From NCBI RefSeq assembly GCF_008086545.1, contig NZ_CP043026.1, positions 930,001-994,000 on the forward strand: a DNA stretch of 64,000 nt. The letters are read 5' to 3'. Numbering within the stretch: position 1 is the first letter of the stretch; each line of letters opens with the position of its first letter. Origin of the DNA: Spiroplasma chinense (GTDB lineage: Bacteria > Bacillota_I > Bacilli_A > Mycoplasmatales > Mycoplasmataceae). Made by a program: the position numbers and the translations under genes. Below the pieces are notes generated by a model that made no database searches, had not been told where the DNA came from, and was given only the letters and a program-made list of their open reading frames with translations. Shown here in pieces: positions 7,027-34,241 of this stretch.

Positions 7027-8673
7027 TTAATCCTCCAAAAGATATTCGTTAATTTTGTTGGTAATAAGTAGAGGGTCTACTTTTCCATCTAATGATCTTG
7101 TTTTTAAATCTAATATTGCCGAAGCATAAGCTAATGAAAATTTTTTCATAAAAATTATAAATTCAGGTTCTTGAGCAAAAGGTTTTAAAAACTTGTGTTC
7201 TACAAATAAAGTAATTGAAAATAAACCTTTACTCTCGTTGATTATTGAAATAGTTATTCAATTTTTTGGATTAACTTTTTCAGAAACAAAGTAAGCAAAA
7301 CTTAATTCGTTATCTCCACTTTTATTAGTTATAACAGTATCCATAATGTTTGTATCTTTTTTATCACCATTATTGTCGTTTTTAATTGCAGTTATCAATT
7401 CTGAAGGAATTTCTGTTCCTTCATTATAATCTTTAATTACTTCTTCTACAGTTTTAACCTCTGAAGTTTTAAGCATTTTTTTAATTTCTTCATTTGCTTC
7501 TTTATTAAGTTTTGTATTAACTTTCTTAGCTCCTGATTCGTCAGACTTTCTTAATTGTGTTGCTCAAATTTTAAATCTTCCCACTTTTCTGTTTAAAAAA
7601 TCTATAAAAGCATCTTCTAAACCATCATCTCAACTAAAACCATCTTTAGCTTGATTTACCGGGAAACTGTCTACATCAATTTCTCCATAAAGTCTTTGAT
7701 AAACAAAAGAAGAAGCATCTCCAAAGATTTCTCTTGGTCTATAATTATCTTCATAACCACCGATGATTGCTCTATTTCTTCTAAATAATGTAAATCCAGC
7801 TTCCTTACGACTACCCACATCTCTAATTCCTACCAAAAATTTCACTAAGTGAGTTTCTCCTGCAAATTCAAAACTATCTTCAAAAGTTCCCACACATAGA
7901 GTTTCGTTATGAATTCCAGTTACTTGACCAGGTAGAATAGTTCTTGGTTTTACCTGAGTAAATTTAACTGCTGGAACTTTTTGCAAACTTTCAAATACAT
8001 TACCTTCAAAGTCACATCATACTCCATCTTTATTCTCAGCAAAAACTATCTGAATATTATTATTTCTTATATCTCTTCTATACATACCTGTAATCATTTT
8101 AGCAACAGTTTGTTTTTGTTTTTTTGTTGCAAATGGTTTTAATAGATCTTCTAGAACCAATTCTGTATAGTGAGCTGTTGCTTCCACTTCTGAAGTTTTT
8201 ATAGGTAAAGTGCTTGGATTACTTCTTTTTAATTCTTCAATATCCATTGTAACTGCATATTCTTTATTTGAACCCAATTGAGTAGATCTAATTGTTCATT
8301 TTTTACTGAATCAAGTTGCAGCTGTTTTCAAACCCATACCAAACTCATTTCTTCCTCCTTTTTTCACTGGAGGATTACCTAACACAACAGCTCTTTTAAA
8401 ATTTTCAATTTCCATACCGTATGCATTGTCTCTAATTTTGATAATAGAATTACTTTTATCATGACTATAAAGAACATAAATTTTAAGTTTGTAATCTTTA
8501 CCATTCTTTTTATAAAATTCTTTTAACTCTTCTTCATGCTCAAAATAACTTGCAGTTGAATTATCAACAAATTCAGCAAGTGCATAAGTTGGTTTGTAAC
8601 TTAATCTTTGATAAGTTGCATATATACTAGACTCTGGTCTAATATCTATCTCATTAATATTGTTGTTACTCAT
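7027..8673 (-). CDS. MORC/MutL-type GHKL ATPase of a Z1-linked defence system
   Basis: 548 aa. N-terminal GHKL ATPase: ALAEFVDNS (catalytic Glu and Mg-binding Asn about 34-38), RDNAYGM (about 81-87) and GRNEFGMGLKTAAT (about 107-120). It continues into an S5-like domain with GFTLFRRNRAIIGG (about 330-343), typical of MORC rather than of mismatch-repair MutL. The C-terminal 150 residues are charged and not recognised. The gene overlaps the upstream HNH gene by 8 nt (ATGAGTAA) and is followed 3 nt later by the Z1 gene, giving a tight HNH-MORC-Z1 operon. MORC ATPases clamp or compact DNA on ATP binding; in bacterial operons of this kind they are thought to act with Z1 in recognising foreign DNA. 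The role here is from family context. Confidence 0.92.
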
Positions 8674-31326: not shown

Positions 31327-33036
31327 CTATTTTTTATAAATAAAACTTGTTAAGAAGAACTCTAAAGTAGAATAATCTACAATAAAAATGTTGTAATCTT
31401 CCATTTCAATTTTTGGATCTACTTCTAATACTTCATTTACAAGTAGAACAACCGAGAATTTAACATCTTTTGGTAAATTCATTTGTTTTCTAAGTTTTTT
31501 AATATCTTTTGCAAATGAAGAATATCTATTTTTAACAACTCTATCAACCAAGTTACCTGGCCCAATAATTGTTTTTAATGAGTCTTTGTATTTTGCTCAA
31601 GGTTCTGCATTATCTGTAAAAATATTGTTAAAGAAGAAGAAACAAATGTTTGCATTTCTTTCATAGGCAATTGCATCTACTAAGTTATTTGTTTTTTTAT
31701 CTCTATTTCTGGTTGCAAAGTAAGGTACATTATTTGGATCTATATTTTCAATAACAGCAAATCTTTTACCCAATTTTCAAATGGTTCAATTTACCATATC
31801 GTGCATTTTTTCATCACGTAATTCAAACATTTTGTTTCTTACAACACTGTCAAATAACATATATTCTTTTTGTGCATGAATTGACATTCAAATCATTTCT
31901 GGATAACCAACAATAAAGAATCTTCTTTGAGTGTCATTAAATCCTAGTAATGGTCTTTTGTAAATTCCTGTTTCATAAAAGTCATCTAAGACATCAGTTG
32001 TGTGAGTTGTGATATTATAGAAAGTTGCATCTTTTATCATGTCTGTCAACATTTCAAAGTTTATTTTTTCTCCAAATACTTTTTGAATTGTTTCAAAAAG
32101 ATTTGTCATATAACCTGTATAGTCATAGACATTGTAATATTCAAAAGAGAAAATTAATTTATCAAGAACTTTAATATAATCTTCTAAAGTTAAGAATTTA
32201 GAAAAAGGTACATCTTTAAACAACTCTTCTTTAGTATCTTTTGCCATCTGTCTAAGTTCTGGGTCAATTCAAAGAGTTAAGTCTTCAATTCTTCTCTCTT
32301 TTCTGTCTTGTTCTTCTTTATCTAATTCTAATAAAGAACCAAATTTTAAAGGTTTTAAAACATTTCTATCAACTTTAACATAAGCTTCAGTTTTTGGGTC
32401 TAATGAAAGATGAAAGTCTCTGGCGTCTTTCGCCTGTTTTGCATAAGAATACATTCAAATTAACATAAATAAATCTTTATAAGCTTTTAAGTCATAAATT
32501 TTTTTATCAATAAAGTCATCCATTTTAGAGAAGAATGATAGCATATCTTCATTGTTTTTGATAAAGGTATAACTTCAAGCAGAAAGTGCTTCATAAAAAA
32601 TTCTTAAACTATTTTGATAAATTCTATAATTATATTTTTCTTTATCAAATTTATATACTCTTAAATCTACTGAAAAGTTAGCTTTATTAACTGTTGAAAG
32701 TAAAACAAATTCTTGAGCTAATAATCTTGCTCCAAGATAGATCATTGATGCAACAAACGCTCTTCCTGATTGAATAGTTTTTTCATCAAAAATTCTAATA
32801 AATCCTGCTTTTGCATCTCTTACATTTGTTGAATAAAATTCAACTCTATCATAAATCATTTGTTCTAATTCTAATAAATAAGAACCCATTCTTTTTTCGT
32901 TTTTTTCAAGTTCATCAAACATTTGAATAATATCTTCTGGTTCAATACCAAAGTAATCAAAATAGTTTAATTGATCATCGAAATCATAAAAATTTCCTCT
33001 ACCAGAAATTTTTTGAAAGTAACGTTCACTTGCCAT
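31327..33036 (-). CDS. Conserved-looking hypothetical protein, 569 aa
   Basis: Soluble, no signal or membrane segment; begins MASERYFQKISGRGNFYDFDDQ. Long helical stretches, rich in Phe/Tyr, with short motifs such as DARDFHLSLDPKT and YFATRNRDKKTNNLVDAIAYERN. About ten TGA-Trp codons. AGGTGG precedes ATG, and TATAAT lies at 33068-33063, 27-32 nt upstream of the start codon. I recognise no family. Preceded by a strongly structured region (33112-33420) that may regulate it. Confidence 0.75.
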
Positions 33037-33062
33037 GCAATTGCCACCTCGCTCATTTATAT

Positions 33063-33068
33063 GATTAT
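33063..33068 (-). promoter_or_regulatory. -10 box of the 569-aa gene
   Basis: TATAAT on the minus strand, preceded by AAGG and without a convincing -35. If this is the only promoter the leader is short and the structured region upstream belongs to another transcript. Confidence 0.5.
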
Positions 33069-33111
33069 ACCTTATTTTTGGGTGTTTTTATGCTTGAGTT
33101 TACAGTACAAC

Positions 33112-33420
33112 ACATAAGTGTAAAAAAAGTCAAATCTCTTAAATTTTACACTTATATGTTTTATTTTGCTGTTTTTTGTGAAAAAAATTTGCAAAATTTC
33201 AAAAAAAAGTTGCAATGTTATTTTTTATATGATACATTTAATTATGTCCTTTCGGACCGACACTTATGGTTCATAACCCCTTTCTTTACATCACTTTCAT
33301 TAAGGGGTCAATGAAATAAACATCCTTTCTTTCGACTTGGCTTGTGTCTACTTCCATAAGTGTTTTCAGTTGACACAAGTCTTATTCATTACTCATTCAT
33401 ATCTTTTTAATTATTAGCAA
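33112..33420 (-). ncRNA. Structured, possibly pseudoknotted RNA region
   Basis: No ORF. Helices: ACACTTATGG (33260-33269) with CCATAAGTGT (33354-33363); CTTGTGTC (33341-33348) with GACACAAG (33372-33379), which interleaves with the first and so makes a pseudoknot; ACCCCTT (33276-33282) with AAGGGGT (33302-33308) extended by TTCAT/ATGAA; GTCC/GGAC (33246-33257), whose loop is GAAA on the minus strand; and ACATAAGTGTAAAA (33112-33125) with TTTTACACTTATATGT (33144-33159). Loops are purine-rich on the minus strand, favouring that strand. A plus-strand promoter-like TTGCAA-17-TACATT (33210-33238) and terminator at 33463 keep the other strand possible. Confidence 0.5.
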
Positions 33421-33462
33421 ATCAACAATTTGAAATGCAGAAATGCATAATTAATAATATAA

Positions 33463-33490
33463 AAAATGCCTGTCAAAGGGCATTTTTTAA
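33463..33490. terminator. Bidirectional hairpin terminator
   Basis: AAAAAATGCC...GGGCATTTTTT. On the plus strand it would end a transcript starting near 33240. Nothing else is recognised between 33421 and 33510. Confidence 0.65.
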
Positions 33491-33510
33491 TATCTAATTT
33501 TAGATAAAAG

Positions 33511-33537
33511 AAAAAAGCGCATTATTGCGCTTTTTTT
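33511..33537 (-). terminator. Terminator overlapping gene end
   Basis: Hairpin AAAAGCGCAATAATGCGCTTTT with T6; the stop codon TAA of the gene at 33522 is in the loop. Confidence 0.85.
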
Positions 33538-34241
33538 CATAATCCTCTATTCATGATTGAGTGAACTATCATCATAACAGATGGGAAAACTGATCCGAAA
33601 AATAATAATACTAAAGGATTTTTCATATCAGCTTCATAAGCTTTAGCTGCAAGATTTTGATTTAATGGTAAAAAATTTTCAGGATATCTTGGATCTGTAA
33701 ATGTTTTACCTTTAAAAATTGCTGGAAATACAATGTAAAAAGAGATAATAATTGCAATACTTGTTATGGTAAAGATTTTAATAAAAACATCGATAGTTCT
33801 TGCTAATTTAACTTTTTTTCAAATAAATACATTTTGAAGAGCCATTAATGAGTTTAATGCAAATAAAATGGTACATGCCAATATTAATGCAGGTTCAATT
33901 GTGTTTAAAACAAAATCATATTTTGTATCAAATGAAGTTTCTGTTTCAGTAACTTTAATTGAAGCTATTGTCATAAATTTTATAAAATCTATAAAACCAA
34001 CATAAATTTGTGATTCTTGCTCTATTCCTTCTCCTGCTGCATTGACTGTAGATCAGTCAAAACCAGAAGAATATCAACTGTAATAATCAGATTTATTAAA
34101 TAATCCAATTACGTGAATAGTTTTTTGACCATCATCACTTTCAACTTTTAAACCAATTACAAAAATGAATAATAGTAAAAATACAAGCACAACTAAATTT
34201 ATAACTAATTGTGCAAATTTTGCAGGTAATCTAAATTGCAT
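33522..34241 (-). CDS. Membrane protein, four TM
   Basis: 239 aa. Start ATG 34241 with AAAGGAGCTGATAT. Membrane segments at about 8-30, 110-132, 145-170 and 208-230; an extracytoplasmic domain at about 31-105. Ends GLWKKAQ if TGA is Trp. It sits just downstream of the large lipoprotein (81-nt gap with a terminator between). No family recognised. Confidence 0.7.

Follow-up and report, generated by a model that had tools for sequence, protein, structure and literature searches.

Comparison of homologues points to a stand-alone pseudoknotted RNA gene in Spiroplasma chinense and its relatives, possibly an antisense regulator

The window analyzed here, a 64,000-nt stretch of the genome of Spiroplasma chinense (NZ_CP043026.1, positions 930,001 to 994,000), contains a structured intergenic region next to the gene of a 569-aa protein of unknown family. 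This raises the question whether the region serves that gene as a regulatory leader, as in a riboswitch, or whether it is an RNA gene of its own; a sequence-only reading of the locus had allowed for both. The comparison of homologues indicates that a structured RNA is encoded here by a separate plus-strand gene, which has a sigma-70-type promoter and an intrinsic terminator of its own and is not the leader of a neighbor. Taken jointly, we consider gene, strand and fold to be close to certain. The extent of 33112-33420 given in the sequence-only reading has to be shifted, as the RNA starts at about 33246 and continues beyond 33420 to about 33488.

A DNA search of 60 genomes of the family retrieved the stretch from each of the 20 that belong to the same genus, which we take to be the Apis clade. 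A sequence-only model gave E values from 1e-22 to 3e-34 in these 20 and of 2.4e-8 in G006, which belongs to another genus; the model was built from the 21 homologues and thus met its own members, and the values mainly confirm one strong copy per genome. It was kept free of structure because MAFFT misaligns the helix P3 between subgroups. Nothing convincing was found with this model in the remaining 39 family genomes. Weak matches in G016 (one of two), G021, G056, G005, G003 and G004 were inspected and judged to be chance, and others with E values of 0.02-0.09 occurred in G019, G047, G050 and G052 and as second matches in G016 and G030. In a sample of 395 genomes of the class, an exact pattern matched 10, and these are without exception of the same genus; the same-genus genome G034, also in the sample, was missed because its M2 segment reads ATATCC. 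The pattern scan of a genome-contig collection, which may omit near relatives, returned 27 stretches, and the sole homologue among them (L080) is a record of G006. A phage or plasmid origin was rejected: no plasmid matched, the pattern scan of viral contigs was without any match, and three phage matches covered the terminator hairpin only.

The fold indicated by this comparison is an H-type pseudoknot, in which 33260-33269 pairs with the loop of P3 and the hairpin P2 is inserted in the first loop. The order of the strands is pseudoknot 5' strand, P2, M2, P3 5' strand, pseudoknot 3' strand, P3 3' strand and M3. Both interleaved helices of the sequence-only reading (33260-33269/33354-33363 and 33341-33348/33372-33379) are present in the sequence, and the pseudoknot proposed from them is borne out by covariation in 21 homologues. 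It forms the top covarying diagonal in a structure-blind MAFFT alignment of these sequences, with 97.5% of 161 cells paired against 78.5% in shuffles, and compensatory two-sided changes occur at all eight of its pairs (38 such cells). On four of five measures none of 500 shuffles came as high, and on the fifth, further pair types, 144 of the 500 did; the homologues are related, so that this count is no probability, and the better control is sliding the strands by one to three columns, after which pairing drops to 26-55%. The P3 core, CTTGTGTC with GACACAAG, extends to ten pairs with one G-U and is paired in 94% of cells, compared with 67% in shuffles (maximum 76% in 2000 shuffles), in an alignment of hand-anchored strands that leans towards the helix. 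For P2 a candidate exists in every homologue, with uneven quality, and the nested GC-rich 7-bp helix described before is found at 33276-33282/33302-33308. The GAAA tetraloop, also described before, does exist on the minus strand (GTCCGAAAGGAC), but the loop on the RNA strand reads UUUC and varies (UUUA, UUUU, UUU, UUGU). A helix P4 is tentative and weakly supported, with a score of 8.8 versus 7.2 in shuffles. The energy z-score of about -3.2 on both strands is modest on its own.

A promoter of the type TTG-N16/17-TATATT lies at the same place in all 21 homologues, 6-7 nt ahead of a 5' G; in G036 and G028 its hexamer register was assigned by eye from the sequences, as the script had chosen another. 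Because of this spacing after the -10 box, the 5' end of the RNA is placed at 33246. The promoter fits the core promoter mapped in Spiroplasma melliferum and its usual 6-nt start spacing, as given in the promoter passages of that study (PMC5138195). In the present genome (G000) alone, the plus-strand promoter is too weak to be found by a generic promoter scan. An A-tract/hairpin/U-tract terminator follows 3' of the conserved part in all 21 homologues, detected by script in 20 and by eye in the window, where a generic scan assigns these hairpins to the minus strand. Between the RNA and the convergent gene of a 239-aa protein, 33461-33536 holds two consecutive bidirectional terminator-like hairpins. 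With helices found under a scoring that is neutral between G-U and A-C, the ratio of G-U to A-C is 48:17 when read as plus-strand RNA. It is this G-U excess, together with the conserved promoter, the terminator and the minus-strand genes on both sides, that favors the plus strand. A coding RNA was rejected, as short frames differ between species and no reading frame is conserved. By comparison, the locus thus appears to combine what is looked for in a trans-acting antisense sRNA, an own promoter and terminator without a conserved ORF.

Table 1. Features of the RNA locus and its divergent neighbor (window coordinates)
Feature	Position	Strand	Remark
Divergent neighbor, 569-aa protein of unknown family	31327..33036	-	outside the RNA gene
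Promoter	33210..33238	+	-35 TTGCAA 33210-33215; 17-nt spacer ending TGA; -10 TACATT 33233-33238
RNA gene, predicted transcript of ~243 nt	33246..33488	+	5' end predicted; 3' end from terminator
P1 hairpin GUCC-UUUC-GGAC	33246..33257	+	5' end of the RNA
Pseudoknot helix, 5' strand ACACTTATGG	33260..33269	+	covariation
P2 hairpin, 33274-33282/33302-33310	33274..33310	+	variable sequence; presents loop motif M1
M1 loop ACAUCACUUUCA	33288..33299	+	mean unpaired probability 0.88 in 19 scored
M2 CU-rich unpaired segment AACAUCCUUUCUUUCGA	33319..33335	+	ATCCTTTCT in 21/21
P3 helix, 5' strand	33339..33348	+	strand counts, hand-anchored alignment
Pseudoknot helix, 3' strand CCATAAGTGT	33354..33363	+	within P3 loop; covariation
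P3 helix, 3' strand	33372..33381	+	strand counts, hand-anchored alignment
M3 nearly invariant unpaired segment UUAUUCAUUACUCAUUCAUAUC	33382..33403	+	ATTACTCATTCATA in 21/21
Conserved U-rich strand UUUUUAAUUAUUAGCAAAUCAAC	33404..33426	+	possible 5' strand of A-U helix P4
P5 small hairpin	33435..33448	+	AUGC-GAAA-GCAU in several relatives
Intrinsic terminator (A-tract, hairpin, U-tract)	33461..33488	+	bidirectional

The sequence-only reading had assigned the region to no known class and had considered a stand-alone RNA; both points agree with what was found, the latter through the plus-strand promoter and terminator and through conservation in genomes without the 569-aa gene. At gathering level, Rfam gave no match in the window or in ten of the 21 homologous loci (~3 kb each), and a permissive scan of 32950-33600 yielded matches far below gathering scores, which were strongest on the A/U-rich terminators. 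RNase P RNA (RF00011), tmRNA (RF00023) and SRP RNA (RF00169) were rejected for lack of a match here, for tmRNA also of a tRNA-like domain, and their genes lie at 480575-480925, 132500-132916 and 8420-8515 of the genome, respectively. In Spiroplasma, tmRNA and RNase P RNA likewise contain pseudoknots and come from single-copy chromosomal genes, but they are unrelated in sequence. 6S RNA was rejected as well, with no match to RF00013. A search of the whole genome, which found the three RNAs just named, gave no 6S RNA at E<=1. The preQ1 and SAM-II riboswitches are H-type pseudoknots and share the topology, but the RNA described here has its own promoter and terminator, a large inserted hairpin and no Rfam match, and it is not immediately followed by a gene on its strand. 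Searches of the open-access PMC literature returned no description of the RNA.

The fold is predicted to hold two nearly invariant segments, M2 and M3, single-stranded. Their predicted unpaired probabilities over all 21 sequences are 0.87 and 0.86, compared with 0.43 elsewhere outside the pseudoknot strands, which were held open in the computation. The loop motif M1 is less constant: three of the 20 same-genus sequences have an altered core, and G006 lacks it. M2 shares UCCUUUCU, a match of 8 nt, with the 3' tail of the 16S rRNA of this genome (GGATCACCTCCTTTCT). The RNA may act in trans, with regulation as its most likely task: M2 would pair with the Shine-Dalgarno regions of target mRNAs and lower their translation, M3 could make a second contact with RNA or protein, and the pseudoknot would protect and display both segments. 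S. aureus RNAIII and RsaE are CU-rich trans-acting RNAs of Gram-positive bacteria, and RNAs of this type are likewise stand-alone and structured and expose CU-rich segments whose sequence is complementary to that of Shine-Dalgarno sites. The present RNA differs from them in its pseudoknot core, its long invariant M3 and the lack of an Rfam match, and any targets of it are putative. As a whole, the statement that this stand-alone pseudoknotted RNA works in trans as an antisense regulator is a tentative one, to which we give somewhat less than an even chance, and the antisense mechanism carries the same restrained expectation.

The search for targets bears directly on this mechanism. In 340 genes from the window and 360 kb of the 1.37-Mb genome, M2 prefers start regions over gene interiors by 2.19 kcal/mol, compared with 1.12 for shuffled M2; for M3 the preference hardly exceeds that of the shuffled sequence (1.72 versus 1.59), and for M1 it is smaller (0.80 versus 1.20). 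Any sequence that resembles the 16S tail would, however, be expected to favor Shine-Dalgarno sites as M2 does. The best M2 target in this sample, a 339-aa protein, is present in just two of 20 genomes. Outside the RNA, the 12-nt complement of M2 occurs at two places in 20 genomes, compared with four for a reversed-pattern control, and the 13-nt complement of M3 at 12 places. Seven of these 12 fall in the same conserved coding sequence, where they encode the peptide HEWVI, the only context in which the complement recurs; three lie in other open frames, one is intergenic and one lies in G035. The complement searches in 20 genomes and at the start sites of the window and the 360 kb thus revealed no conserved target, long ones included. 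In G030, a 29-nt stretch (L026, C1:922563-922591) agrees at 93% with the complementary strand of the conserved M3 region and sits some tens of bases ahead of a start-like ATG; it may be a target or chance. With regard to expression, S. diminutum and S. taiwanense have been examined by RNA-seq in a study that assembled those intergenic reads which passed a coverage cut-off. Rfam, ARAGORN and Bcheck served to annotate the resulting contigs, and the passages on highly expressed ncRNAs name only tmRNA and rnpB (PMC5726471). As far as these passages go, they speak against very high expression of the RNA, with the reservation that the study may have left a contig without annotation unmentioned.

The role as cis-regulatory leader or riboswitch of the minus-strand 569-aa gene draws on proximity, as this family is the nearest gene of at least 100 aa on its side in seven of 12 neighborhoods (11 of the 20 same-genus genomes and G006). 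On the minus strand, 33476-33447 resembles a promoter with a score of 10 of 12, but five such sites were found where 3.2 are expected. In the 12 neighborhoods the conserved genes next to the RNA on either side lie on the opposite strand, and the first conserved plus-strand gene, where seen, is ~1-4 kb away, separated from the RNA by the terminator and by an antisense gene. Gene and RNA are also separable: the 569-aa family occurs in 18 of 60 genomes (16 of the 20 same-genus genomes, G005 and G006), four of the 20 keep the RNA without it, and in G005 the divergent region upstream of the gene, read by eye, has no RNA motif. The protein itself has no Pfam or NCBIfam match, its confident AlphaFold model (pLDDT 87) has no PDB match at E<=0.001, and ten columns are invariant among 18 homologues. 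The hairpin 33112-33159, noted in the sequence-only reading, is present; it lies between the promoter of the RNA and the divergent gene of the 569-aa protein and carries ATAAGTGT/ACACTTAT, which are also strands of the pseudoknot. The idea that this shared strand competes for pairing as an expression platform did not hold, as the hairpin lies upstream of the promoter, outside the transcript, and is unconserved; the recurrence of ACACTTAT/ATAAGTGT in it is peculiar to this genome and, partly (7 nt), G032. G046 has a similar 8-nt upstream recurrence of its own with a different pseudoknot strand, which is not a general feature. With the RNA on the opposite strand, occurring separately from the gene and ending in a terminator, we think that a leader function is extremely improbable.

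For the stand-alone RNA, the antisense reading is slightly favored over a protein- or ribosome-binding RNA, an RNP core or a sequestering RNA, in which M2 and M3 would be a binding surface or tertiary core and not antisense seeds. The long invariant unpaired stretches around a pseudoknot with freely changing helices argue for such binding, as does the outcome of the target searches, and the invariant unpaired bases exceed what a seed needs, which counts against the antisense reading. On the other side, no partner protein is known, and the 569-aa neighbor cannot be an obligatory one, since some genomes keep the RNA without it; we regard binding as a serious possibility, if still a doubtful one. 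A single copy in each genome and a core that hardly varies would also suit a disguised housekeeping RNA, such as RNase P RNA, tmRNA, SRP RNA or a 6S-like RNA, and no 6S RNA was found anywhere in this genome. However, the other three have their genes elsewhere, the ten homologous loci gave no Rfam match, and 6S RNA is a long hairpin with a central bubble whereas a pseudoknot is found here, so that this identity is very unlikely. Equally slim is the chance of a self-cleaving or otherwise catalytic RNA, whose cores the pseudoknot and conserved joining segments resemble in outline only; no Rfam ribozyme matched, and promoter and terminator are those of a gene and not of a processing site. It is unlikely, though less so, that the RNA founds a new class of the Apis-clade spiroplasmas, with pseudoknot and unpaired core forming an RNP, a ribosome factor or a catalyst without counterpart, perhaps with a 6S-like global role.

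To our knowledge, few structured RNAs specific to the reduced genomes of Mollicutes have been described, and the pseudoknotted RNA gene is new in that no known RNA family matched. The result is a defined gene with strand, ends and structure, which can be checked in public RNA-seq data. The identity of a neighboring protein falls to 18% while the RNA stays in every genome of the clade. Spiroplasmas and other reduced Mollicutes have few transcription factors, according to the passages on regulation in PMC5138195. As the RNA is kept throughout the clade while a neighboring protein diverges, and as transcription factors are few, we think that it probably matters to these insect-associated bacteria.
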